Shown: in pieces, positions 13,148 to 27,908 of the stretch
Layout: the number at the start of each line of letters is the position of its first letter
How positions within the stretch are numbered: the stretch's first letter is position 1
Source of the DNA: a virus
IMG/VR virus record: IMGVR_UViG_3300034198_011944
Coordinates: 1-29,322 of that record
Strand: one strand, 5' to 3'
DNA length: 29,322 bases
Notes under the pieces: model-generated
Databases searched by the model: none
What the model saw: the letters and a program-made list of their open reading frames with translations, nothing else
Told to the model about the DNA's origin: nothing
Translations under genes and position numbers: made by a program

Positions 13148-16100
13148 ATGCCAAGTCCAACTGACTTTAATCTTTCTCCATACTATGATGATTTTAATGA
13201 AAATAAAAATTTTCATAGAGTACTGTTTAGACCTTCATTTGCAGTACAAGCGAGAGAATTAACACAGTCACAAACAATATTACAAAATCAGATTGAAAAA
13301 TTTTCTGATCACGTCTTTAAAAAAGGCGCAATGGTCATACCTGGTCAAGTAGCATTTGATTTAAATTACTATGCTATTAAATTAAGTGCTAAATCTTTAA
13401 GTAATATAAATTCATATATCGGTGTAATTTTAACAGGTGTAACTTCAGGAGTTCAAGCAGAAGTTGTTAATGCTGTAGCAAGTACTAGTACTGATCCTGA
13501 TACTCTTTACGTTAAATATATTAAAACTGGAACTAATAATACTAGTTTTGTATTTACGAATGGTGAAATTTGTAATTGTACCGTAAGTTCAGCTGCTCAG
13601 ACAGTAACAGTTAATACAACTGCAACAGGTTCATCTGCATCAATTGCAAAAGGTGTTTATTATATTAATGGATATTACGTTACAATTTTAGATCAAACAA
13701 TAATATTAGACAAATATACAGATACTCCAAGTTATCGTATTGGTGTTGATATAGTAGAATCATTTATAACTGCTAACGAAGATGGTACACTAGTTGATAA
13801 TGCAGCAGGTACATCTAATTTTAATGCTCCAGGTGCACACAGATTTAAAATATCATTAACACTATCAAAAAGAGCTTTAAATTCTGTTGATGATTCAAAC
13901 TTTATAGAATTATTAAGATTAGAAAATGGAATACTACAAAATCAAATTAGAACAACTGAATATTCTGTTTTAGAAGATACGTTTGCAAGAAGAACGTATG
14001 ACGAATCAGGAGACTACAGTGTAAAAGATTTTGATATAGATTTAAGAGAACATTTACTATCAGGAACTAATAGAGGTATTTACGCATCTGGTAATGGTGG
14101 GGTAGAAACAAAATTAGTAGCTGCAATTGGTCCTGGTAAAGCTTATGTTAAAGGTTATGAAATTGAAACAATAGGTACAACGTTTTTAGATGTTGATAAG
14201 GCAAGAGATTTTAGTACATCTAATAATTTTAAAACTAGATTTGATTTAGAAAGTTATGTAAATGTTTCTAATGTTTATAATGCTCCAGATATTACATACA
14301 ATCCTGGAGAAACTGAAACATTTAAAAATGTAAATTTATACGACACCAGTACAACTAATAATAGATTATCATATTTAAGTGCTACAGGAGCTGATGTAAG
14401 AGGTTCATTAAAATCTACATCTGGTGTGGCTGTACCTCAAATAGGTAGAGCAAAGTCTAGAGGTTTTGAATTAAATAATGGTATTGCAAGTTCTAATTTA
14501 TTTGTAACATCATCTTTAACAAGTAACGTTTATAAACATTATCTTTTTGATATAGAAATGTTTACACATCTTAACGTATCTAAAGCAGTCGCATTTACTA
14601 ACGGAGAAAAAATTACAGGAAGTACATCTGGAGCTACAGGTTACGTTCAAACTATTTCATCATACAAATCGGCTGTAATTAGCAATATGTCTATTGCAAA
14701 TCCTTCTATTGTTACTTCTACAGCTCATACATTTAAAGAAGGTATGCAAGTTGAGATTTCAGGAGGTACTTGGTCAATTAATTCAGTTTCAGTTCTTACT
14801 GCTGCTGTTTATACAGTAAAAAATCCAACAGCAAATACTTTTGAATTATATGCATCTAATGGAACTAGTCCTGTAAATGTTACATCATTTAGTTCTGGAG
14901 GAACTGCAAATCACGGTGTTGTTGTATTAGCTAACGTTTTAGGAATATTTACTAATGGAGAAAGTATTACAGGGTCAACATCACTAGTAACATCAACAAT
15001 ACAAAATAACGTTTTAGGATTTCACGGTGTACAAAACTTTGATTTTTCTTCTGTAAAACAAATTGGTATGACAGGTGGAGCAGGAATAAACTATACTGCT
15101 GATACAGAAACTAGTGCAGCTTTTGGAGATAATTACCAACTATTTGGAACGTTTTCAATTGCAAACAATGGAACAGTAGTTACTGGTTATGGAACATTAT
15201 TTTTAACAGAATTAAGACTAGGAGATACAATACATTTTACAGCTGACAATGGAACTATTATAACTAAAATTGTTGAGTCTGTAACATCTAATACTAGTTT
15301 AACATTTTCAACTGCAGTAGGTGCATCTGATGTATCAACAAAAACAGTTGGTGTAAGAAGAAGATCAAAATTAATTGGATCTAATAAAAACATTTCAATA
15401 TTTAAGTTACCATACGAAACTATCAAAACTTTAAAAACATCATCTAATAATAATATTACAGATACAAATTTTTACGTAAGAAGAAATTTTATAGCATTGT
15501 TATCTGCAAATGGTGATGCTCAAATAACTGCAGGAACAAATGAAACATTTACAGGATTATCTGAAAGAGATTTCACTGTTTCTATTATAAATCTAGGCGC
15601 TGGTCCTTCTGGAAATATAGGAGATATTTTTAGTTTATCAGGAAATAATCACGAAGGTGATCCAATATTTACTTTAACCGGTACTCCTACTGGAAAAACT
15701 CTATCATTAGATTTTGGTGCAAATTTTGCAGGACATAAAATAAAAATAGTTGCCACAGTATCACGTACTGTTGCTAATGAAAAAACAAAAACGCTTGTAT
15801 TAAATTCTAGTTTATCTATTTCAACTCAAACAATAATACAATCTGGTTTAATAGGTTTAAGTAAAGCAGATGTATACAGAATTAATGCAGTTTATATGTC
15901 AGCAAATTTTTCTACAAATGCTACATCTTCTGATACTGATATTAAATCAAGATTTGATTTAGATACTGGACAAAGAGATAATTTTTATGATATAGGTAGA
16001 CTTAAATTAAAACCAGGTTCTCTTAATCCTACCGGTAGATTATTAATAGACTTTGATTATTTTTCTCACGGTTCTGGAGATTATTTTTCTGTTGATTCTT

Positions 16101-19100
16101 ATACAAGTGTTATTGACTATAAGGATATCCCTTCTTATACTTCAGATACTTCAGGATTAACATATCAGTTACGTGATTGTTTAGATTTTAGACCTAGAGT
16201 TGATGATGCATCTATTGTTGTTGGTTCTGGTCAATTAAGACAATACAACGGATTGGGAGCATCTGCCGTAGATCCTGTTCAATTCAATTCTGATATTACT
16301 ACAGATTTAGAATATTATTTAAAACGATTTGATAAAATATTTTTAGATAAAGATGGTAATTTTAAAGTTGTTAAAGGAGCAAGTTCTTTAACTCCTCAAC
16401 TTCCTAAAAATTTAGATAATGCTATGCATTTATTTACATTAGCTTTAAATAGTTATACATTATCATTAAAAACTTCAGATATAGATATTGAAAAAATTGA
16501 TAATCGAAGATATACAATGAGAGATATTGGTCGTTTAGAAAAAAGAATATCAAATGTAGAATATTATACTCAATTATCTTTACTAGAAACACAAGCACAA
16601 TCTTTACAAATACAAGATGCAGAAGGTTTTGACAGATTTAAAAACGGATTTATTGTAGATAATTTTACGGGTCACGGTATTGGCGATGTAGGAAATTTTG
16701 ATTATAAAGTTTCTATGGATATGGCTGGTGGATTCCTTAGACCAATGTTTAATTCTGAATCTGTAAAATTGATTGAAGCAACAAGTTCAGGAAACACTAC
16801 AATTTTAACAGCTGATAGACTAGCTTCTAATTATCAAAAAACTGGAGATTTAATTACTTTACCTTACACAGAAGTAAATTTAATAGAACAACCTTATGCT
16901 AGTAAATATCTAAATGTTAATCCTTTTAATATATTTACTTGGGCAGGTTCAGTTGCACTTGATCCTCCAGGCGATGAATGGAAAGAAACAAATAGAGTTC
17001 CTGATTTATTAGTTAATGAAAGAGGTGCTTTTGATACAATGGTTGAAGCACTAGGTAATCCTAATTTAGATAGCGTAGAAATTGATACTGTATGGAATGA
17101 GTGGCAAGATTTTTGGCAAGGATCTTCAGCAGATAGAATTAGTAGCGAAAGTACAAGATGGGCTGGAAGAGCTCTTGTAAGAGATAGAACAATTGAAACA
17201 TCACAACAAGTTTCTCAAACAAGAACAGGTATTAGAACATCTTTAGTACCTCAAGTTGTAAGAACTGCTTTGGGTGATAGAGTATTAAATATAGCATTTA
17301 TACCTTTTATAAGAAGTAGAGTAATAAATTTTACAGCTACAAGAATGAAACCAAATACAAGAGTTTATCCATATTTTGATAACATAAGTATTGCATCTTA
17401 CATAACTCCTACAGGAGGAGCTCTTGGAGGACCTTTAATAACAAACGTAAATGGTTCTGTATCAGGTACTTTTAGTATTCCTGATTCTACTAATAATAAT
17501 AATCCAAGATGGAGAACTGGTCAAAGAGTATTCAGATTAACTAGTTCAATTACAAATTCTACAACAGATGTTGAAACTTCTGCTGAAGCAGATTATATAG
17601 CTAAAGGTTCTTTAGAAACTGTACAGAATACAATTGTATCAACAAGAGAGCCACGTTTAGTAAGAATTGACGTTAATGATACTAGAAATATTACAAGAAC
17701 ATCAACAAGAGAAACTTCTGATATTATAGGTTGGAATGATCCTCTTGCACAAACATTTTTAATAGATAATACTGGTGGAGTATTCATTACTTCAATAGAT
17801 TTATATTTGCAATCTAAAGATACAAATATTCCTATTACAGTACAAATTAGAGAAGTAGTAAACGGTTATCCTTCTAGGACTGTAATACCATTTGGTGAAA
17901 TAACATTAAATCCATCTTCAGTTAATACTAGTGAAGATGCAAGTGTTGCAACTAAATTTACTTTCCCATCTCCTGTGTATTTACAAGAAAAAACAGAATA
18001 TTGTTTTGTAGTATTATCTGATTGTAATAATTATAATGCTTTTGTTGCAAGATTAGGAGATACTCAAATTGGTTCAAATAGAACAATATCTGAAAATCCT
18101 TATGCTGGAGTATTATTTAAATCTCAAAATGGTTCAACTTGGACAGCTGAACAAATGGAAGATATAAAATTTAAAATTAATAGAGCAGAATTTGAAAACG
18201 TAAGTGGTAGCGTTACTTTAGTAAATGATACTGTACCTACAAGAACATTAAATCTTAACCCTTTAAGAACAACGTCTGGTTCCGGTGTTATTACAGTTAC
18301 TTGTAAAAATCACGGAATGCATAGTTTAACTAATAATGTTACAATTTCAGGTGTACCTGCTGGAACATATAATGGTATAGCTCATACACTAATAAATGGA
18401 ACTTACACTTCTATTTCAAATGTAACTTTAGATACATTTAGTATTACTACTGCTGGTACTGCAACATCTACTGGTGACGTTGGAGGAAGTTCTGTTGTAA
18501 CAACACAAAATAGATTATTTGATGTTGCTTGTTTAAATATTTCAACTATGACAGTTCCAGGAACTAGATTAGGATACTCTTTAAGAACAACAAGTGGAAG
18601 TTCAATACACGGCACAGAAACATCATTCTTATTAGAATCATCAAGTCAAGCAATCAATGTAACTCCTTCAGATAACATTAATTTTACTTCTCCTAGATTA
18701 GTTGCAAGTTCAATTAATGAAACTAATGAAATGTCAGGTAGTAAATCATTATTTAATATTTTAACTTTAACTACTGAAAATACAAAAATTTCTCCTGTTT
18801 TAGATACCTCAAGAATGAGTATGGTTGCGGTACAAAATAGATTAAATAATCCAACAGTTTCAAATACGCCAAATTTTGTTTCTGATTTTAACTCATCAGG
18901 AACATCATCAGCTGCAGTATATGTAACTAGACCTATATTGTTAGAAAATGCGTCAACTGCATTAGATGTAAGACTAACTCAAAATGTAAGAACTTCATCT
19001 TCAGTAAAAGTATTTTTTAGAGTAACTGGTGCTGATGAAGTTAGAAATATTAACGATTTAACTTGGAATGCTTTTAATATTGACGGTAGTGAAGATGATT

Positions 19101-19264
19101 CTGTATCTCCTGCTGAAAATGATAGTTCATTTAAAGAATACAAATATAGTATCAATGGATTAGGTGAATTTACAGCGTTTCAAATTAAAATAGTATTAAA
19201 AGGAACTAATTCTTCTTATCCTCCTATTATTAGAGATTTAAGAGGTATAGCATTAGCGTTGTAA
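13148..19264 (+). CDS. giant DUF4815-type baseplate or tail-fibre structural protein
   Basis: This 2038-residue protein has the DUF4815 N-terminus at about 11-60: YYDDFNENK, RVLFRPSFAVQARELTQSQ, and LQNQIEKFSDHVFKKG. That family is found in large structural proteins of marine T4-like and jumbo phages. Further along are beta-modules (GEKITGSTSGATGY, GESITGSTS), a helical or coiled region near 1111-1180 with RDIGRLEKRISNVEYYTQL, a conserved block near 1376-1411 (GDRVLNIAFIPFIRSRVINF), and a jelly-roll-like segment beginning DPLAQTFLIDNTGG (1531), which could bind carbohydrate. The start is supported by AAGGA just upstream. It probably forms an extended appendage of the baseplate. T4 has no obvious equivalent, so its exact place in the particle is unknown. 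Confidence 0.85.
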   Translation: MPSPTDFNLSPYYDDFNENKNFHRVLFRPSFAVQARELTQSQTILQNQIEKFSDHVFKKGAMVIPGQVAFDLNYYAIKLSAKSLSNINSYIGVILTGVTSGVQAEVVNAVASTSTDPDTLYVKYIKTGTNNTSFVFTNGEICNCTVSSAAQTVTVNTTATGSSASIAKGVYYINGYYVTILDQTIILDKYTDTPSYRIGVDIVESFITANEDGTLVDNAAGTSNFNAPGAHRFKISLTLSKRALNSVDDSNFIELLRLENGILQNQIRTTEYSVLEDTFARRTYDESGDYSVKDFDIDLREHLLSGTNRGIYASGNGGVETKLVAAIGPGKAYVKGYEIETIGTTFLDVDKARDFSTSNNFKTRFDLESYVNVSNVYNAPDITYNPGETETFKNVNLYDTSTTNNRLSYLSATGADVRGSLKSTSGVAVPQIGRAKSRGFELNNGIASSNLFVTSSLTSNVYKHYLFDIEMFTHLNVSKAVAFTNGEKITGSTSGATGYVQTISSYKSAVISNMSIANPSIVTSTAHTFKEGMQVEISGGTWSINSVSVLTAAVYTVKNPTANTFELYASNGTSPVNVTSFSSGGTANHGVVVLANVLGIFTNGESITGSTSLVTSTIQNNVLGFHGVQNFDFSSVKQIGMTGGAGINYTADTETSAAFGDNYQLFGTFSIANNGTVVTGYGTLFLTELRLGDTIHFTADNGTIITKIVESVTSNTSLTFSTAVGASDVSTKTVGVRRRSKLIGSNKNISIFKLPYETIKTLKTSSNNNITDTNFYVRRNFIALLSANGDAQITAGTNETFTGLSERDFTVSIINLGAGPSGNIGDIFSLSGNNHEGDPIFTLTGTPTGKTLSLDFGANFAGHKIKIVATVSRTVANEKTKTLVLNSSLSISTQTIIQSGLIGLSKADVYRINAVYMSANFSTNATSSDTDIKSRFDLDTGQRDNFYDIGRLKLKPGSLNPTGRLLIDFDYFSHGSGDYFSVDSYTSVIDYKDIPSYTSDTSGLTYQLRDCLDFRPRVDDASIVVGSGQLRQYNGLGASAVDPVQFNSDITTDLEYYLKRFDKIFLDKDGNFKVVKGASSLTPQLPKNLDNAMHLFTLALNSYTLSLKTSDIDIEKIDNRRYTMRDIGRLEKRISNVEYYTQLSLLETQAQSLQIQDAEGFDRFKNGFIVDNFTGHGIGDVGNFDYKVSMDMAGGFLRPMFNSESVKLIEATSSGNTTILTADRLASNYQKTGDLITLPYTEVNLIEQPYASKYLNVNPFNIFTWAGSVALDPPGDEWKETNRVPDLLVNERGAFDTMVEALGNPNLDSVEIDTVWNEWQDFWQGSSADRISSESTRWAGRALVRDRTIETSQQVSQTRTGIRTSLVPQVVRTALGDRVLNIAFIPFIRSRVINFTATRMKPNTRVYPYFDNISIASYITPTGGALGGPLITNVNGSVSGTFSIPDSTNNNNPRWRTGQRVFRLTSSITNSTTDVETSAEADYIAKGSLETVQNTIVSTREPRLVRIDVNDTRNITRTSTRETSDIIGWNDPLAQTFLIDNTGGVFITSIDLYLQSKDTNIPITVQIREVVNGYPSRTVIPFGEITLNPSSVNTSEDASVATKFTFPSPVYLQEKTEYCFVVLSDCNNYNAFVARLGDTQIGSNRTISENPYAGVLFKSQNGSTWTAEQMEDIKFKINRAEFENVSGSVTLVNDTVPTRTLNLNPLRTTSGSGVITVTCKNHGMHSLTNNVTISGVPAGTYNGIAHTLINGTYTSISNVTLDTFSITTAGTATSTGDVGGSSVVTTQNRLFDVACLNISTMTVPGTRLGYSLRTTSGSSIHGTETSFLLESSSQAINVTPSDNINFTSPRLVASSINETNEMSGSKSLFNILTLTTENTKISPVLDTSRMSMVAVQNRLNNPTVSNTPNFVSDFNSSGTSSAAVYVTRPILLENASTALDVRLTQNVRTSSSVKVFFRVTGADEVRNINDLTWNAFNIDGSEDDSVSPAENDSSFKEYKYSINGLGEFTAFQIKIVLKGTNSSYPPIIRDLRGIALAL

Positions 19265-20327: not shown

Positions 20328-21617
20328 ATGGCTATTAGAACACCTTTATATTATAACACACTTACAGGAAATTTAACTAATCTAACTAGTGGTGAAATTA
20401 ATCAAATTATAAATCATATTGCTTATAGATGGTCTATAAATCCTACAGTCACTCTTTCAGTTACAGCTAATAGTGGTTCAAATTTAACAGCCATAAATGA
20501 TACTCGTTGGAGTGCTGGAACATCATCGCAAACAAATACGGCATTTCCAACTGAAGCTACAACACAAGAACCTCAGTTAGTAACAGTATCATATCAAAAA
20601 ATTTTACAAACAGTATCGTCACTATCTTTACCTACAAGTACGCTTACAGATTGGCCAGCTTATTTAACATCAGGTGGTAATATACAAGCAATGAGTTTAC
20701 AAGATATGAAAGATACTTTTTTTCACCCTGCAATAGATTTAATAACTTCTGCTTCAACTGCATCTACATTAACAGGAAATACGTATTCAATTTCCACTTC
20801 AACTGTTTTAGCTAATCATACTGCTGTTATTCAGCCAGTTGTTGGTATAACAAGAAATTATAACGTAACGAATGCTGGTAGTGGTTCATATACTTTTTCA
20901 GGAGATATATCAGGATCAAATCCTACTGTAAACGCTACTGTAGGAGATACATTAGTATTTGTTCTAAACGCATCAGGTCACCCTTTTTGGATAAAAGCTG
21001 AAGCATCAACAACTCCTGCAAATGGTTTAACAACAGGAACAACAAATAATGGTTCTGCTGTAGGAACTATTACTTGGAATACTACAGGTTATGCGCCAGG
21101 AACATATTATTATAATTGTGAATTACACGGGTCAATGAGAGGTCAAATAGTATTAGTAAATCCTCCAGCAACTGCAGTATTTACAGATACTAGAGCTGAT
21201 TTAACTTTATTTACTGCTGCTGGTATACCAGAAGCACAAGATCAACCTATTACAATTAACAATTATTATTTACATAAAAGAAACACAGGCAGTGATCCTG
21301 ATTATACCGTAGTACCTGTTTTTATAACTCCAACAGGTAATATACAGGTGTATGATAAAACAACTTTTTCAAACAATTTAACTACTTGGCTTAGATATTT
21401 AACTGTAAACTCTGCTGATACTTTCAGAATAAGATATAATATAAATGGAACAGGAAATCAAAGAGGAACAAGTATGTTAAATTCAATTGTAGGAGTAGTA
21501 AACACAGGTAATTATCAAACAGTACAAATTGGTGATGATTATAGAGCTCAAGAATTTCCTGCCGATGTTGCTGTTGAAATTGCAAATGTGTATAATTTAA
21601 CGATAGATAAAACATAA
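20328..21617 (+). CDS. tail structural protein with a cupredoxin-like domain
   Basis: This 429-residue protein has three parts. Residues 1-160 begin MAIRTPLYYNTLTGNLTNLT and look like a structural attachment domain. Residues about 185-278 resemble a plastocyanin-type cupredoxin: GDTLVFVLNASGHPFWIK carries H218, and YYYNCELHGSMRGQIVLV carries C264, H267 and M270. That His plus Cys-x2-His-x2-Met layout is the type-1 copper pattern, with a slightly short last loop. Residues 285-429 are a further beta-rich domain with no recognised motif. No signal peptide is present, so this is not an exported electron carrier. It lies among fibre genes and is most likely a virion component. Whether it binds copper or only keeps the fold cannot be told from sequence. 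Confidence 0.75.
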   Translation: MAIRTPLYYNTLTGNLTNLTSGEINQIINHIAYRWSINPTVTLSVTANSGSNLTAINDTRWSAGTSSQTNTAFPTEATTQEPQLVTVSYQKILQTVSSLSLPTSTLTDWPAYLTSGGNIQAMSLQDMKDTFFHPAIDLITSASTASTLTGNTYSISTSTVLANHTAVIQPVVGITRNYNVTNAGSGSYTFSGDISGSNPTVNATVGDTLVFVLNASGHPFWIKAEASTTPANGLTTGTTNNGSAVGTITWNTTGYAPGTYYYNCELHGSMRGQIVLVNPPATAVFTDTRADLTLFTAAGIPEAQDQPITINNYYLHKRNTGSDPDYTVVPVFITPTGNIQVYDKTTFSNNLTTWLRYLTVNSADTFRIRYNINGTGNQRGTSMLNSIVGVVNTGNYQTVQIGDDYRAQEFPADVAVEIANVYNLTIDKT

Positions 21618-21638: not shown

Positions 21639-22103
21639 ATGGCTGTTTTTAGTAATAAAATAAAAGAGGTTTGTTTTTACGATAAAAATAAAACTACGAT
21701 TGAAGTTTTATATAATGAAAATAATAGTACGGTAAATTATTTTGTACCAGTAGATTTTCAAAATTCAGATTTTAAAGACTTATTAACTGAAGTAGATTTG
21801 GAACAGATAGAAAAGAATACTAAAAATAAACAAAAAGTATATCGTCAACAATTGACTAACTATATAACTAACGTAACTGATAGTTTAAAATATCAATCAG
21901 AAAATAGTGATGAAAAATTTTTAGATAGATTTGATAAATTTTTATTTAATTATGATGACAAAGATGATGAACTTCTATTTAAACTAAAATTAAAAATGTT
22001 TGAATCAGCTAAACTTAAAAATTGTAATGATACTGATAAAAAATCAAAGATAAGAACAGCAACAAATCCCTTACAATTAGTAAAAGAATTTGAAAACATA
22101 TAA
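21639..22103 (+). CDS. conserved-looking phage protein of unknown function
   Basis: This 154-residue, Lys/Asp/Asn-rich protein is not recognised with confidence. Residues 1-35 predict a small beta-sheet (IKEVCFYDKNKTTIEVLYNE). The rest is mostly helical, with a charged block near 100-125 (FDKFLFNYDDKDDELLFKLK) and an end containing IRTATNPLQLVKEFE. It has no membrane segment or catalytic motif. Unlike the fibre proteins around it, it is not Gly/Ser/Thr-rich, so it is more likely an assembly factor or non-structural protein. The AAGGAG sequence before it sets the start. The accessory enzyme cassette begins eight bases after its stop. Confidence 0.75.
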   Translation: MAVFSNKIKEVCFYDKNKTTIEVLYNENNSTVNYFVPVDFQNSDFKDLLTEVDLEQIEKNTKNKQKVYRQQLTNYITNVTDSLKYQSENSDEKFLDRFDKFLFNYDDKDDELLFKLKLKMFESAKLKNCNDTDKKSKIRTATNPLQLVKEFENI

Positions 22104-22111
22104 AAATTACA

Positions 22112-22696
22112 ATGAACAAAATAACTGTTTATTGTCTTAAATGGGGAGTTAAGTACAATAGAAAATTTGTAGAAGATTTAAAATCGTCATTAGAAAAGTA
22201 TTTAACTATTGATTATGATTTTAAATGTTATACAGATAAACCCGAAACTGATTACGATATACCTGTTAAATATAATTATTTAGAAGGTGTGTGGCATAAA
22301 ATTGCTTTATTAGAATTTACCGGACCTTCTTTATATTTTGATTTAGATGTTAAAATTAGCGATAACATAAATTTTTTAGCAAGTGATTTTAAAGACTTTA
22401 CAGTTATTGATTCTCAGCCTTGGAAAAAAACATCAAGTAAAACTTCTTTTGATTTTAAATTTAAATTATTTAATAACACCTTTATAAACACTTCTATAAT
22501 GCGTTGGTCAAATAGTACAGATATATGTAATTATTTTTTATCAAACAAAGATAAGTTTATAAAAGATTATAAAGCAACAGATAGATTCATATACAACGAA
22601 AAATTGTCATATAAATATTTTATAACAGACAAAATTTCTAGTTGGAAAGAGAACAAAGAAAATACAATTGTCTTATATAATGGATTTTACAAATGA
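22112..22696 (+). CDS. glycosyltransferase-like protein (DxD motif)
   Basis: This 194-residue protein starts with a strand typical of phage and bacterial GT-A-like enzymes (KITVYCLKWGVKYNRKF). It then has FKCYTDKP, a VWHKIALLEF segment, and SLYFDLDVKI with D77-L78-D79 as the candidate metal and sugar-nucleotide binding DxD. These features in this order resemble glycosyltransferases related to family 8 that transfer a sugar from a nucleotide donor. The protein is short for the family but not obviously truncated. No signal peptide is seen, so it would act in the cytoplasm. Its stop overlaps the next ATG (ATGA). The sugar and acceptor are unknown. Confidence 0.65.
   Translation: MNKITVYCLKWGVKYNRKFVEDLKSSLEKYLTIDYDFKCYTDKPETDYDIPVKYNYLEGVWHKIALLEFTGPSLYFDLDVKISDNINFLASDFKDFTVIDSQPWKKTSSKTSFDFKFKLFNNTFINTSIMRWSNSTDICNYFLSNKDKFIKDYKATDRFIYNEKLSYKYFITDKISSWKENKENTIVLYNGFYK
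22610..22617 (+). promoter_or_regulatory. possible internal late promoter
   Basis: An exact TATAAATA lies inside the glycosyltransferase-like gene, about 75 bases before the oxygenase gene. It could boost the downstream enzymes. However, by my rough estimate exact matches are expected by chance several times in a window of this composition, and this one is within a coding region. Confidence 0.25.
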
Positions 22697-23373
22697 AAGA
22701 TTACTATAAAATAGCAAGAGATATTATAGAAAATCATAAACTATACTATCTTAAATTAAATATTACTTTACCTAAAGAATCTTTAGAAGAAGTATTGGCT
22801 GTTTACAATCAAAAATTTTTTGTAAAACATAGAGGTTGGAATCATAAAGGTTGGTTATCCGCTGCATTACATTCTGTCAATGGAGATTTTTGGAAAACAA
22901 TGAGTGGTAAACAATATGGTTATGAAAATGATTCTGATGAATCTATAAAATGGAATTGGACTGATGTTTGTGATTATGCTCCAAAAACAACTGAATTTTT
23001 TAAAAAAGAATTTCCCGCAAATGGTTATAGAAGATTAAGATATATGTTATTAGAACCATCTGGTTTCATAGAAGAACATTGTGATGCGCCTAGTAAAGTA
23101 CCTTACAATCCTAGAAAAGTAGATTCTATTTTTAGTGCATTGAATATGTGTATTACTCAACCCAACAATTGTGAATTAACTCATTTAGATAATGGTCCTG
23201 TTCCGTTTAAGCCATTTGAAATATATCTTTTTAATAATGATGAAATGCATTACGCATTTAATAAATCAGATAAAAATAGATTTCATATTATAGCTCACGC
23301 TAATTATAATGATGATTTTTGTAAGTTATTTGTAGAAAGTTTTGAAAAAAATTATGAACCTATTTACAAGTGA
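22693..23373 (+). CDS. Asp/Asn beta-hydroxylase-like 2-oxoglutarate/Fe(II) oxygenase
   Basis: This 226-residue protein has the iron and 2-oxoglutarate binding layout of the aspartyl/asparaginyl beta-hydroxylase family. RYMLLEPSGFIEEHCD gives H129-x-D131, MHYAFNKSDKNRFHI gives H186, and R196 is ten residues after it. The ten-residue His-to-Arg spacing is the same as in mammalian aspartate beta-hydroxylase. NNCELTHLDNG and PFEIYLFNND lie between, as expected for the jelly-roll core. Such enzymes hydroxylate Asp, Asn or other groups using 2-oxoglutarate and O2. The substrate here is unknown: a virion protein, host protein, amino acid or sugar are all possible. The gene overlaps its upstream neighbour by four bases and the next one by about twenty. 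Confidence 0.78.
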   Translation: MKDYYKIARDIIENHKLYYLKLNITLPKESLEEVLAVYNQKFFVKHRGWNHKGWLSAALHSVNGDFWKTMSGKQYGYENDSDESIKWNWTDVCDYAPKTTEFFKKEFPANGYRRLRYMLLEPSGFIEEHCDAPSKVPYNPRKVDSIFSALNMCITQPNNCELTHLDNGPVPFKPFEIYLFNNDEMHYAFNKSDKNRFHIIAHANYNDDFCKLFVESFEKNYEPIYK

Positions 23374-24808
23374 AAATCAATCCTTAAAAGGTAATCCAAA
23401 AATAAAACCCAATACTATTGCTATTGCTGTTATTGATGATAGAGAAATAATAAAACACGACTTAGTAAGATACCTTGTAGAGACTTATACTGAAAATACT
23501 TTATTTAATTTACAAAAACGTAGATGCGATATATTAGGATTTTTTAAAGAAACAGAAATAGATGATATAATAGAAACTTCATATAAACAAAACTATGAAT
23601 TATTAGTTATTATAAAAACAGGAACTTTTATTAACAGTAGTTTCTTTTTTGAAAATTTAAAAGAAATGATTAATAATAACATAGCTTTAATGGGACACGT
23701 TTTAGATTATAAAGAGTCTTATTATTTTTTACACGAACAATGTTTTTTTATAAACTTAAAGTCTTGGAAACTGTCAGGATCTCCTCAGTATTTTTCAACA
23801 GAAAACAATCTTATTAATGTAGATAGATCAATTGATAATTTCCACGATAACTATACACCAAAATGGATTAAAGTAGGAAAAGATAAAAAGAAATATGATA
23901 AGACATTACCGGGAGGTTATTTGATATCTTCTCTATTAGAAAGTGGTTATAATGTAAGTCCATTTAAACACGAAAGAGATTTAAAATTCTTTACATATCA
24001 TAGTGATACTATGAAGTCTTTAATGAAGTTTATTAATTTAAGTAATACAAAATATACGGTTGGTTTTTTTTCAACTGAAACTGAAACTATTAAGAATATT
24101 GATTTAAAAGATAAAAATATAGATACGGTATTAAGTGTTGCTTCTGCCTTTCACCCATTTAAATTAGTTAAGAAAACAAATATAGAAAGTACATTAAAAA
24201 ATTTAATTATATATGATTATAGTCCTGTGGCTATAGATGTGTATAAAAATATGTTACACGTTTGGGATGGTAAGAACTATTTAAGTTTATTAAAAAACAC
24301 AAAAACTTTTGAATTTAAAGCAGGTCATAATGAAGTACTATCTGAAAAAAGTTTTGTAGAAATGATAGAATTATGTAATGGTAATTCAAATTGGATTGAA
24401 TATTTTAATCATATTTGTAAATTAAATAAAGATTTTTTAACTGGTAACTTAATATCGGAAACTTTTCATAAAAAAATTACTAATAAATTAAAAAAAGATA
24501 ATATATGTCTATTTAATGTGAGTAACATATTTACATATGAAACCGAAACGTTTTGGATAGATATATTTCAACGATATTTTTCTTTTTTCAATTTATATAT
24601 GTTAATGAAACACAACACTAAGACGACTTACTTTTTAGGTTCATTATTTAATTTTGACAGTTTAATGTCTACGAATGATTTTACACTTGAAGATTTTATT
24701 ATAAAATCTAAAGAATTAGCAATAACTCCTTGGCAAAAAGAAAGATTAAAAGACTTTGAAAGTTCTTTAATTAAAAGATATGAAGATATTAGCAATAAGA
24801 ATAGGTAA
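23354..24808 (+). CDS. unknown protein, possibly glycosyltransferase-like with an extra C-terminal domain
   Basis: This 484-residue protein has no secure family. I chose ATG 23354; a TTG at 23342 would add four residues. Residues 1-190 contain NTIAIAVIDD, YELLVIIKTGTFI and IALMGHVLDYKESYYFLHEQCFFINLKSW, a pattern I associate with unusual glycosyltransferase-like proteins of marine phages. The second half has FKLVKK, LKNLIIYDYSPVAIDVYKN (Rossmann-like strand then helix, reminiscent of a methyltransferase core) and LFNVSNIFTYETETFW. No complete DxD or SAM-binding motif is seen, so activity cannot be assigned. It overlaps the oxygenase gene by 20 bases and the next gene by 29, which ties it to the cassette. 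Confidence 0.5.
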   Translation: MNLFTSENQSLKGNPKIKPNTIAIAVIDDREIIKHDLVRYLVETYTENTLFNLQKRRCDILGFFKETEIDDIIETSYKQNYELLVIIKTGTFINSSFFFENLKEMINNNIALMGHVLDYKESYYFLHEQCFFINLKSWKLSGSPQYFSTENNLINVDRSIDNFHDNYTPKWIKVGKDKKKYDKTLPGGYLISSLLESGYNVSPFKHERDLKFFTYHSDTMKSLMKFINLSNTKYTVGFFSTETETIKNIDLKDKNIDTVLSVASAFHPFKLVKKTNIESTLKNLIIYDYSPVAIDVYKNMLHVWDGKNYLSLLKNTKTFEFKAGHNEVLSEKSFVEMIELCNGNSNWIEYFNHICKLNKDFLTGNLISETFHKKITNKLKKDNICLFNVSNIFTYETETFWIDIFQRYFSFFNLYMLMKHNTKTTYFLGSLFNFDSLMSTNDFTLEDFIIKSKELAITPWQKERLKDFESSLIKRYEDISNKNR

Positions 24809-25484
24809 TAAGTACGGACCCGAGTACGAAACCTATTTAGAAAAAAAATTACCAGAATACGAATTTATATGGTTAAGAGAAGCATATGATAGTAAAGTAC
24901 TATTACAGTGGAATAAAATGTATGGTATGGCTTTAGATATTGATGAGCCTATCTGTGTTATAGATATTGATATATTATTAATTAATGAATATAAAAAACT
25001 ATTTGAGTATCCTATTAATCGTGGAGAATTTTTAGCAATCCCTGGTTGGTGGAGAGATACTAAAAAAGAAGGATATAAAATTAATGGTGGATTTTTTAAA
25101 TACTATCCAAAAGATTGTAAATATATCTATGATAAGTTTATGTCAAATATTGATTACTGGCAGAATTATTATATTAAAAAGGGTGTTACCGCTGGTCCTG
25201 TAAATGGAGAACAATATTTTGTTGAAGATAGTGTTAAAGAAAAATTAACTTTAAAAACTATACCAAATTCTTGGGTTACACGTTGGGTGTCGAATGATAT
25301 TATTGTAAGTTCTGAAGATAATAAAGAGTGGCAAACAAAGTTAACAACAAAATATAAAACATTAACAGGTAATCAATACATATACTTAGGTGGTGAATTT
25401 CACAATGATATAAAATTGGTTCATTTTACTCACGCCATAAATAAACCTACTGAATGGAAAGAATACACAAAATTTAATGACTGA
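24780..25484 (+). CDS. second glycosyltransferase-like protein (DxD motif)
   Basis: This 234-residue protein begins with a strand and helix (KILAIRIGNKYGPEYETYLE). It then has EFIWLRE, LLQWNKMYGMAL, and ICVIDIDILLI with D62-I63-D64 as the candidate DxD. PGWWRDTK and GYKINGGFFKYYP follow, like the acceptor or donor-side loop of GT-A enzymes, and LVHFTHAINKP near the C-terminus supplies a late His often used in metal binding in family 8. It resembles the gene at 22112 in plan but not closely in sequence. It overlaps the previous gene by 29 bases and the radical SAM gene by eight (ATGACTGA). Donor and acceptor are unknown. Confidence 0.62.
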   Translation: MKILAIRIGNKYGPEYETYLEKKLPEYEFIWLREAYDSKVLLQWNKMYGMALDIDEPICVIDIDILLINEYKKLFEYPINRGEFLAIPGWWRDTKKEGYKINGGFFKYYPKDCKYIYDKFMSNIDYWQNYYIKKGVTAGPVNGEQYFVEDSVKEKLTLKTIPNSWVTRWVSNDIIVSSEDNKEWQTKLTTKYKTLTGNQYIYLGGEFHNDIKLVHFTHAINKPTEWKEYTKFND

Positions 25485-26793
25485 TAAAAAACAATTTAGC
25501 TCATTTGAAAATATAGAAAAAGATTTTGTTGATGAAACAGGTATTGAATGGTTTTGTCCCGAACCCTATGGTAATATTTACACTGAAACAACTGGTGAAT
25601 ATAAAGCGTGCTGTTCTGGTGCAGATTTTTATGATGTTAAAACTGATACACATACTCCTATTGAGGCAATGAATTGTAGTAAGGCAAAAGAATTAAGAAA
25701 AGCTTTTGTTACTAAAGATAAAAAAATATTAAACGAACATTGTCAAATGTGTATTGTACAAGAGAAAAGTGGTATAAAAAGTTCTAGGCAATATTCAATG
25801 GAACACTATGTTGATAATAAAACTGGTTTTGATAGTGCAGTAAAAATAGCTAAACAAGTAAAAGAAGATCCTAAAATAGATATTAAGCCAGAGTTTTTTC
25901 ATACAATGGAGCATTTGGCTGGAGGAGGTAATTTTTGTAACTTAAAATGTTTAATGTGTCACCCTTATAAAAGTTCTTCTTTTGCAAGTGAGGCTTTAGA
26001 ATTAGGAGAAGATATTAGCGTATTTAATGTAACTAAACCTTTAATAAAACCTCCAACTAATAAAAAAGTTAATGATGAAATACAAGGTTACATATTAGAA
26101 AGGTTAGATGAAATAAAATTTACTGGTGGTGAACCATTAATGATACCTTACAATTATGAATTGTTACAAAAAGCTGTAGATTTAAAAACATCTTACAAAC
26201 AAAATTTAAGAATTATTACTAATGGTACAAATATTCCTAAAATGAAAGGTAAAGATATTTTTGATTATATACCTCATTTTAAATATGTTACTTTTAATAT
26301 TTCTATAGAAGCTTGGGGAGTAAGAAATAATTATATAAGATATCCTAGTGATTTTAATAAAATTTTAGATAACGCAAATAAACTAGCAAATACTTTTTCT
26401 AATGTTAGTGTTTCTTTTGTATCTACGATTAATTCTCTAAACATAGGATATGTAGATGATTTTTTTAGATATCCACCTTTAGTCAATAAAAAATTTAGAC
26501 AACCTGTTATGTCCTCTTATGTATTAAAATGGGAAGATTTTAAAACTGACTCATATCACGGTATGAATATATCTTCTTTGCCTTATGATATTAGAGAAAA
26601 ATATTTAAATAGATACTTTACATTAGAATCCGATATCGCTATAAAAATGAGACCATATATAAAAATATTAGAAAATAGAGATCATAATATGGACGATACT
26701 AAAATTTTAATTAGTAGATTAAAAAAACGAGACAAGTTAAGAAATACAAATCTTTTAGAAATGTGGCCAGAGTGGGAAAAGTACTATGTATGA
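25477..26793 (+). CDS. radical SAM enzyme with N-terminal twitch-type domain
   Basis: This 438-residue protein has the radical SAM cluster motif Cys-x3-Cys-x2-Cys at C154, C158 and C161 (GGNFCNLKCLMCHP) and the SAM-binding GGEP at 217-220. Before the core are C27, C45, C46, C67, C89 and C92. They form the extra cysteine set of the N-terminal twitch radical SAM family, in which the auxiliary-cluster domain precedes the barrel rather than following it as in SPASM proteins. Members are common in marine T4-like phages. It would carry one SAM-cleaving [4Fe-4S] cluster and probably an auxiliary cluster. The substrate is unknown, but related auxiliary-cluster enzymes often modify peptides or sugars. 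It overlaps both neighbours by eight bases. Confidence 0.9.
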   Translation: MTDKKQFSSFENIEKDFVDETGIEWFCPEPYGNIYTETTGEYKACCSGADFYDVKTDTHTPIEAMNCSKAKELRKAFVTKDKKILNEHCQMCIVQEKSGIKSSRQYSMEHYVDNKTGFDSAVKIAKQVKEDPKIDIKPEFFHTMEHLAGGGNFCNLKCLMCHPYKSSSFASEALELGEDISVFNVTKPLIKPPTNKKVNDEIQGYILERLDEIKFTGGEPLMIPYNYELLQKAVDLKTSYKQNLRIITNGTNIPKMKGKDIFDYIPHFKYVTFNISIEAWGVRNNYIRYPSDFNKILDNANKLANTFSNVSVSFVSTINSLNIGYVDDFFRYPPLVNKKFRQPVMSSYVLKWEDFKTDSYHGMNISSLPYDIREKYLNRYFTLESDIAIKMRPYIKILENRDHNMDDTKILISRLKKRDKLRNTNLLEMWPEWEKYYV

Positions 26794-27361
26794 AATTAAA
26801 GAATTTAACGAACATTTAAATTTAAATTTTTTTTATAACAAATGTAACGAAAAAAAATTTTATAATAACAGTTCTAAAGAGAAGTTATATGATTCATTAA
26901 AAAATGAAAAAGAATTTAAATTGTGGATATTGTATTACAATAACAACCCTGTTGGTAGTACTGCTGTTCATAGTTTTGATGATGTAATGGGTACAAGTAG
27001 TTATAGAATATGTGCAAGAACGTGTGTACTTAGTGAAGAAACACATTTACATAATATAAGAACTTTAAACAAAACTATTTTACAACATCAAAATATAACC
27101 TCTCAATTTTTTATACCTATATGTTTAGAGTGGGTTAATAAAAAAGGTAATGTATATATTACTACAAGTAACAAAGATGTAGCTAGTATGAAAGGTGTAC
27201 ATAATGTATATGCCCCTGCATTATCTAAAAAAGGTATATTAAAGAACATAAAAGACGTTCTTTATAAAGGAACAAAACAAACTGTATGGCAACTATTTCC
27301 TGATATTTTCTTAAATAGTTTAAATAAGTATCATAAATGGGATTATAAATATATAAATTAA
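26786..27361 (+). CDS. possible GNAT-type acetyltransferase
   Basis: This 191-residue protein has a helix followed by WILYYNNNPVGSTAVHSFD (47-65), the beta-strand pair that opens the GNAT fold. A conserved-looking RICARTCVL (74-82), a TLNKTILQHQNIT helix, and ICLEWVNKKGNVYITTSNK (112-130) follow. The usual acetyl-CoA loop (R/Q-x2-G-x-G/A) is not evident, so the call rests on the general plan only. Its start overlaps the radical SAM gene by eight bases (ATGTATGA), so it ends the cassette. A late promoter octamer lies within its last codons and serves the next gene. Confidence 0.42.
   Translation: MYEIKEFNEHLNLNFFYNKCNEKKFYNNSSKEKLYDSLKNEKEFKLWILYYNNNPVGSTAVHSFDDVMGTSSYRICARTCVLSEETHLHNIRTLNKTILQHQNITSQFFIPICLEWVNKKGNVYITTSNKDVASMKGVHNVYAPALSKKGILKNIKDVLYKGTKQTVWQLFPDIFLNSLNKYHKWDYKYIN
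27344..27351 (+). promoter_or_regulatory. T4-type late promoter before the gene at 27372
   Basis: An exact TATAAATA lies in the last codons of the preceding gene. A start around 27357 would give a leader of about 15 bases that contains the complete AAGGAG (27360-27365), so promoter, ribosome binding site and ATG are correctly ordered. Confidence 0.6.
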
Positions 27362-27371: not shown

Positions 27372-27560
27372 ATGACAATTAAAATTAATGGTAAAGATTA
27401 TGATGAAACTAAATTTAGTGATAAATTAAAAAATTACATCATAGCAAGACAAGAGATACAAAACAATAAAACAAGATTAATTGTAGAACTTGAAAAAATA
27501 GACGTATTGACTGAATATTATAATAATAAGATAACAGAAGAATTAAAAATAGAAAGTTAA
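27372..27560 (+). CDS. small helical protein (DUF6447-like)
   Basis: This 62-residue protein opens with a short beta-hairpin (TIKINGKDYDETKFSDK) followed by one long helix from about residue 18 with repeated Ile and Leu, probably a coiled coil. The plan 'IDG-x-x-Y...LS...K..' then helix matches a small family found beside tail genes of marine phages, which I associate with DUF6447. No function is established. It has its own late promoter and strong ribosome binding site, which suggests substantial late expression and a return from the enzyme cassette to structural genes. Confidence 0.65.
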   Translation: MTIKINGKDYDETKFSDKLKNYIIARQEIQNNKTRLIVELEKIDVLTEYYNNKITEELKIES

Positions 27561-27566
27561 TATTAA

Positions 27567-27908
27567 ATGGCAGCTGTAGCAAACCTATCAATAGATCAAG
27601 GAGCAACATTTTCTTCAGATGTTACGATTAAAGGATTTGATGGAAATGTTTTTAACTTGACAGGTTACACAGCTAGAGCAAAGTTAGCCAAAGGTTATTC
27701 ATCTACAAGAACAAGAACAAATATTACTTGTACTATTGCCAATGACGCCACTTCTGGCGTAATTACATTGTCTCTTACAGATGCTCAAACTGCTGCTTTA
27801 GACGCAGAAAGATATGTTTACGACTTGGAAATAGTCTCAGGTAACGGTGTAGTTACAAGAGCTTTAGAAGGTATAATAACTGTTAGACCAGAAGTTACTA
27901 CCGCTTAA
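27567..27908 (+). CDS. small beta-sandwich virion protein (BppU-N-terminal-like)
   Basis: This 113-residue protein has the sequence of strands LSIDQGATFSSDVTI, NVFNLTGYTARAKLA, SGVITLSLTDAQTAAL and ERYVYDLEIVSG, ending GIITVRPEVT. The 'G-x-T-F ... D/NLTGYTARA ... LSLTxxQTAAL ... YVYDLEI' pattern is widespread in small phage structural proteins with an immunoglobulin-like or BppU N-terminal-like fold. Such proteins usually attach fibres or decorate the tail. It is complete for the family. The start lies six bases after the previous stop, with no clear Shine-Dalgarno sequence. Confidence 0.7.
   Translation: MAAVANLSIDQGATFSSDVTIKGFDGNVFNLTGYTARAKLAKGYSSTRTRTNITCTIANDATSGVITLSLTDAQTAALDAERYVYDLEIVSGNGVVTRALEGIITVRPEVTTA

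Follow-up and report, generated by a model that had tools for sequence, protein, structure and literature searches.

A modular enzyme cassette with a fixed frame in the tail-gene region of a marine T4-like phage

Genes of the cassette

We analysed a cassette of six open reading frames (ORFs) at positions 22112-27361 of the viral record IMGVR_UViG_3300034198_011944 from IMG/VR; the whole stretch analysed, positions 1 to 29,322 of that record, is referred to below as the 29.3-kb window. An earlier note, made from the sequence alone, had singled out these ORFs as a set of enzymes acting on one substrate. We found all six on the + strand, with successive overlaps of 4, 20 (32 if the third ORF starts at its TTG), 29, 8 and 8 bases, and with structural genes on both sides. 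The source phage is T4-like, and the identity of its baseplate wedge protein gp8 to that of Pelagibacter phage Mosig (65%) and of HTVC008M (51%) points to a relative of the pelagimyophages. The comparisons reported below establish that the enzyme set is real, selected and modular, that it has an obligate small partner, and that it is anchored to a tail-fibre connector.

The first and fourth ORFs, gtA (22112-22696, 194 aa) and gtB (24780-25484, 234 aa, with a C-terminal HFTHAINKPxxW motif), encode GT8-like glycosyltransferases, gtA being assigned to the GT-A type. Searched singly, neither gave a family match. The two genes belong to one family, the profile of which recovered GT8 glycogenin structures at E 0.0055, and in an alignment of 38 sequences (A1) the DxD motif was invariant (D77 and D79 of gtA, with their counterparts in gtB), as were W104 and N126. 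This bears out the original description of both as DxD glycosyltransferase-like genes. The Pfam GT8 model detected 1 of the 38 family members, at E 0.004, and the gtB subfamily alone matched neither that model nor the GT8 structures.

The second ORF (22693-23373, 226 aa) encodes a predicted Fe(II)/2-oxoglutarate hydroxylase of the Asp/Asn beta-hydroxylase family PF05118, which it matched at 34.2 bits against a gathering cut-off of 22.6 (E 2.7e-8). The iron triad H129, D131 and H186 was present in 47 of 47 hydroxylases and the 2-oxoglutarate-binding R196 in 46 of them, so that the label of a beta-hydroxylase-like oxygenase stands with its catalytic residues intact.

The third ORF, u488, extends to 24808 from either an ATG at 23354 (484 aa) or a TTG at 23342 (488 aa). 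It possessed no sequence match in Pfam or the PDB, and full-length homologues exist in phages. An AlphaFold model built from the single sequence reached a pLDDT of 36, and the model built with a 31-member alignment (A9) was confident (pLDDT 87.4, pTM 0.86). For the N domain, the top Foldseek hits were human LH3, COLGALT1 and R699 of mimivirus (E 2.8e-5 to 6e-4); for the C domain they were NNMT-type methyltransferases, of class I fold (probability up to 1.0). The model resolves what had been listed as a 484-residue unknown as a predicted two-domain protein, with a GT-A glycosyltransferase-fold N domain and an S-adenosylmethionine (SAM) methyltransferase-fold C domain, and as the putative founder of an undescribed glycosyltransferase-methyltransferase (GT-MT) family. 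Profile comparison detected no relationship between u488 and the stand-alone methyltransferase and glycosyltransferase families of the module.

The fifth ORF (25477-26793, 438 aa) encodes an N-twitch radical SAM enzyme, in agreement with its first description. Its full-length match to NF033640 scored 250.6 bits, well over the cut-off of 170. The CxxxCxxC motif was found in 36 of 36 radical SAM proteins, and the N-terminal twitch cysteines and the GG motif were conserved as well. A scan of cellular genomes with the window protein found nothing; a scan with the family alignment found mainly tandem arrays in Bdellovibrionota, together with phage contigs binned in bacterial genomes. The last ORF (26786-27361, 191 aa) had been called a possible acetyltransferase, a label left unsupported, since searches of Pfam, PHROGs and NCBIfam gave nothing even at E values up to 1. 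This protein of unknown family has distant relatives in the islands L091 (E 5e-7) and L178 (35%) of other phages.

The cassette was also said to be AT-rich in a manner that fits acquisition. It is indeed AT-richer (GC 0.253 versus 0.315), but the inference of acquisition fails, because the GC gap tracks amino acids. FYMINK residues make up 43% of the cassette versus 28% elsewhere, third-position GC is 0.155 in the cassette and only 0.091 in the remainder of the window, synonymous codon usage is alike in both (r = 0.98), and the flanking 154-aa and 62-aa genes are as AT-rich as the cassette. The low GC is an effect of amino-acid composition, and AT-richness is thus no evidence of a foreign origin. 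Independent contigs hold the cassette genes with 97-100% identical proteins, pN/pS values are mostly 0.03-0.16 and there are no stops; the cassette is thus under purifying selection, is not decaying and did not arise through misassembly.

A fixed frame with an exchangeable middle

Loci were collected from relatives of the upstream connector, and then by scans with gtB and the hydroxylase for closer relatives. The tail-fibre connector (20328-21617, + strand), phrog_677-like by its PHROG matches, forms the upstream edge of the module, and its relatives carry a variable enzyme island at the same place. Frame counts were made over 37 non-redundant loci with the region intact, in which the co-conserved enzyme set proposed for the tail region recurs at this one site. 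The order was c4, gtA (34 loci), the methyltransferase-like gene c9 (33 loci), an exchangeable middle and gtB. The middle slot held a nitroreductase-like gene in 15 loci and u488 in 18, mostly together with the hydroxylase (14). At this site, the hydroxylase was always accompanied by u488 (14/14; Fisher 5e-7), and hydroxylase and nitroreductase middles were nearly exclusive (p 0.0016). The source phage carries a version of the module without c9. The whole unit is inverted in two loci (L227, L228) and placed before gp8 in two others (L146, L156), and in many relatives the module lies on the strand opposite the structural genes. Sister islands encode an epimerase, a DegT aminotransferase, a carbamoyltransferase, TauD-like and PF05118 oxygenases, a fatty-acid desaturase and several types of radical SAM enzyme. 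At this site, HTVC008M and Melnitz contain nothing but genes for fibres or oxygenases.

The fixed gene next to the connector, c4 (21639-22103, + strand), encodes a non-enzymatic protein of 154 aa and no known family. It was present in 89 of 90 loci with module enzymes and in none of 8 without (Fisher 6e-11), and a separate scan seeded on c4 found module enzymes in 76 of the 77 loci with readable flanks. In 78 cases it adjoins a GT8-like gene, 45 times on the same strand and 33 times converging. Because c4 occurs with the enzymes and is missing without them, we count it, on this linkage, as a module member, though it lies outside the six genes first grouped together. The structural flanks of the cassette hold, and the 154-aa gene that had been counted among them behaves as part of the module. 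Family members are of 150-210 residues and conserved over their full length. The window protein itself matched nothing in 50,697 phage records, and a relative used as query picked out Mosig alone. No credible match to c4 was found in Pfam, PHROGs or the PDB; a match to TFIID (E 6e-4) was taken as an artefact of charged sequence. The connector remains beside c4 and the module through inversion (33/78) and through relocation next to gp8, and c4 is the best candidate for an acceptor or adaptor.

At least 275 relatives of gtB were found in viral contigs. Between loci, gtB is 62-79% identical, with a median pairwise identity of 0.665 that exceeds those of the connector (0.45) and of the other module genes (0.26-0.42); for the connector, c4, gtA and c9 the medians span 28-45%. 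It is the most conserved of all the module and structural genes compared, which may reflect either strong constraint or recent spread. The gp8 of module-bearing phages is closest to that of a SAR11 phage in some and to those of OM43 methylophages (Melnitz) in others, and their hosts probably differ.

Two kinds of gene fusion were seen. An N-twitch radical SAM enzyme is joined to a carbamoyltransferase in a single 978-aa ORF (L053:5465-8401), in which a sequencing frame error is possible, and in six loci (L019, L023, L034, L035, L061 and L090) a GT8-like protein carries a fused SPASM-like Fe-S domain. These fusions support a shared pathway.

The hydroxylase and u488 were also found as a pair alone, directly behind fibre genes and with no other enzymes, in an unrelated phage type (L229-L231). 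The fibre genes there end in DERLKxN...GVIAQExEKVLPEVV, which by eye we take to be an S74-type chaperone-like C terminus. In L232 only the C domain of u488 precedes the hydroxylase, so that it is the methyltransferase-like domain which always accompanies this enzyme. A link of the module to collagen-like fibres was tested and rejected, as 7 of the 8 loci that lack the module had such repeats, against 2 of the 90 that carry it.

Some observations concern relatives and surroundings of the module. The Bdellovibrionota N-twitch arrays comprise 2-8 paralogues (L093, L095, L103, L104, L117 and L118). The neighbours of cellular N-twitch genes included some glycosyltransferases and no consistent partner, so the substrate is not settled by them. 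L232 and L105 proved to be the same 46,940-base contig, filed as a Rickettsiales genome and classed as viral in IMG/VR, in which about eight N-twitch genes stand in a row with two other radical SAM genes, accompanied by a PF05118 hydroxylase; L090 and L091 are likewise phage contigs within bacterial genome bins. The connector of the window contains, at residues about 198-276, an inserted cupredoxin-like stretch (GHPFWIK ... YYYNCELHGSM), with H, C, H and M spaced as in a type 1 copper site. Its match to Pfam Copper-bind reached only E 0.14, and the insert occurs in just 4 of 89 distinct connectors. Downstream of the cassette, the AT-rich 62-aa gene (27372-27560, cluster c23) precedes a fibre-assembly gene at 27567 and is kept at the same place in related phages.

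Sites of the sequence TATAAATA, resembling T4-type late promoters, lie at 548, 5481, 5493, 27344 and 27936, 15-53 bases 5' of structural genes. All are on the + strand and none on the - strand; by our own estimate, about six per strand would be expected from base composition. No such late-promoter-like site lies directly 5' of the cassette, and its timing is therefore not fixed by these sites. Prediction of late promoters has been unsuccessful in pelagimyophages (PMC7029224).

Pathway and acceptor

The cassette enzymes very probably form one pathway. The strict hydroxylase-u488 pairing and the fusions argue for the shared pathway that the earlier note had proposed, and its logic of a glycosyltransferase plus a hydroxylase is supported by the GT8 profile and the folds of u488. 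The cassette would be one phage's version of a conserved, modular tailoring pathway that marine T4-like phages encode among their tail genes. Its fixed parts are c4, two GT8-like glycosyltransferases and usually a methyltransferase, with middle genes that are swapped between phages; in the source phage, the middle comprises the 2-oxoglutarate hydroxylase and a putatively bifunctional u488, followed downstream by the radical SAM enzyme and the 191-aa protein. As we infer its substrate, timing and order of steps, the hydroxylase would put a hydroxyl on an acceptor, u488 and the GT8-like enzymes would build or cap a short glycan at this hydroxyl, and the radical SAM enzyme would remodel either the sugar or the acceptor. 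The first candidates for the acceptor would be c4 and the adjacent fibre connector, and the outcome could be altered adsorption or virion properties.

Our preferred reading, held tentatively, is that the acceptor may be a component of the phage tail, which the module would decorate with an unusual sugar. A phage acceptor is favoured because the module stays linked to the connector and c4 through inversions and relocation, because gtB is unusually conserved across phages of probably different hosts, and because the u488-hydroxylase pair adjoins fibre genes in an unrelated phage type. LH3 and COLGALT1 glycosylate hydroxylated side chains, the latter as a hydroxylysine galactosyltransferase, and their first rank for the N domain of u488 also favours this reading. 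In its most specific form, a side chain of c4 or the connector would be hydroxylated, the new GT-MT family would then glycosylate and methylate it, two GT8-type enzymes would extend it, the radical SAM enzyme would remodel it, and swaps in the middle would change the decoration; that all of these particulars hold is unlikely.

Several points weigh against a tail acceptor reached in this way. As the module lies opposite to the structural genes in many relatives, their co-expression is not general, and the conservation of gtB could also reflect recent spread. The TM-scores of the u488 N domain were low (0.20-0.27 on the whole query), because two domains were aligned to one. The u488 family also lacks a canonical DxD, with IIKTGT / VSVGM seen by eye at the end of the GT-A strand in A9, and we therefore claim no membership in a known glycosyltransferase family. 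Together with the C domain standing alone in L232, this lack means that a collagen-like order of hydroxylation before glycosylation is not secure. Finally, the epimerase, DegT aminotransferase and carbamoyltransferase of sister islands are typical of surface-glycan clusters.

The last point leads to a close rival, somewhat doubtful in our judgement, in which the module modifies the surface glycan of the infected host (the O-chain of lipopolysaccharide (LPS) or an equivalent), for example excluding competing phages or preventing adsorption of progeny to debris. Modification of the host O-chain is the published opinion on this same island (PMC7029224). It accords with the GT8-like enzymes of the module, with the methyltransferase, nitroreductase, epimerase, O-carbamoyltransferase and DegT aminotransferase of sister islands, nucleotide-sugar enzymes among them, with the presence of carbamoyltransferase and GT2/GT4 genes in the vicinity of certain N-twitch radical SAM arrays of cellular genomes, and with the fact that Mosig infects SAR11. 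However, the module families included no flippase, polymerase or membrane-anchored acyltransferase that we could see, and strongly hydrophobic segments are absent from all cassette proteins. A host glycan also leaves unexplained the tightly linked, small and soluble c4 and the constant linkage to the connector, and it fits poorly with the conservation of gtB among phages for which different hosts are inferred and with a PF05118-u488 pair that occurs beside fibre genes where GT8 genes are lacking.

It is quite improbable that the enzymes make a soluble small molecule, a modified peptide or a nucleotide sugar, akin to ribosomally synthesized and post-translationally modified peptides (RiPP-like) or to signalling compounds, with c4 as precursor or carrier. 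N-twitch and SPASM radical SAM enzymes, hydroxylases, methyltransferases and carbamoyltransferases are typical tailoring enzymes of natural products, a small dedicated protein accompanies them here, and one related phage has its row of about eight radical SAM genes and a hydroxylase. Yet c4, at its length and with conservation throughout, does not have the leader-core layout expected of a peptide precursor, the module has no recognised protease or exporter, and its fixed part consists of two to three glycosyltransferases. The absence of any common pathway, in a hypervariable island that merely gathers unrelated genes, would suit the strongly variable gene content and the lack of the island in HTVC008M and Melnitz, but is very improbable given the statistically strict pairs, the fixed frame and order, c4, the fusions and purifying selection.

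SAR11 bacteria are among the most abundant in the ocean. If a virion protein is the target of the module, relatives of SAR11 phages would possess an elaborate tailoring pathway, the exchangeable enzymatic slot of which could tune adsorption. If the host surface is the target, the module would be a defined, testable unit behind the O-chain modification proposed for pelagimyophages. Either way, the island called "hypervariable" resolves into a module whose frame is fixed, with a dedicated partner and a new, confidently folded enzyme family, and the question of its substrate becomes directly testable.

Comparison with known systems

The earlier note knew of no such set as a defined pathway. In fact, Zaragoza-Solas et al. 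(2020; PMC7029224) have reported the island as a whole in pelagimyophages under the name host recognition cluster (HRC), noting its hypervariability and its radical SAM cassettes and GT8 enzymes. Like the HRC, the island of the window, in the same phage group, comes after a VrlC homologue (13148-19264) in the structural region, holds tail-fibre genes, GT8-type glycosyltransferases and a radical SAM gene, and varies between phages. The other border of the HRC is gp14, and the window runs out within fibre genes, ahead of any neck gene. The HRC paper describes variability and a role in LPS modification (PMC7029224), and does not describe the frame of c4, gtA, methyltransferase, exchangeable gene and gtB, the hydroxylase-u488 pair, the obligate c4 or the fusions. 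Within the papers searched, we found no description of the fixed frame, obligate c4 or GT-MT family; to this extent the claim of novelty survives.

The enzyme cluster of phage Mosig EXVC030M (MT647606, at about 57-72 kb) shares with the window the site by VrlC, the connector and c4, as well as gtA- and gtB-like, PF05118 and radical SAM genes. It differs in lying opposite to the structural genes, in a gtB only about 30% identical, in the absence of u488, and in an additional aminotransferase, carbamoyltransferase and nitroreductases.

In the collagen lysyl hydroxylase LH3/COLGALT1 and the collagen-type glycosyltransferase R699 of mimivirus (PMC9546862), which are the solved folds nearest to the u488 N domain, a 2-oxoglutarate hydroxylase is paired with a GT-A-fold enzyme, as in the window. 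In contrast to these systems, u488 has neither sequence similarity to them nor a canonical DxD, its second domain is of methyltransferase fold, the hydroxylase is of the PF05118 family, and the window holds no collagen-like repeats. The radical SAM enzyme is a full-length member of the NF033640 family with its twitch and core cysteines kept; whereas the cellular members in Bdellovibrionota mostly form tandem arrays, here a single copy resides in a phage glycosyltransferase module.

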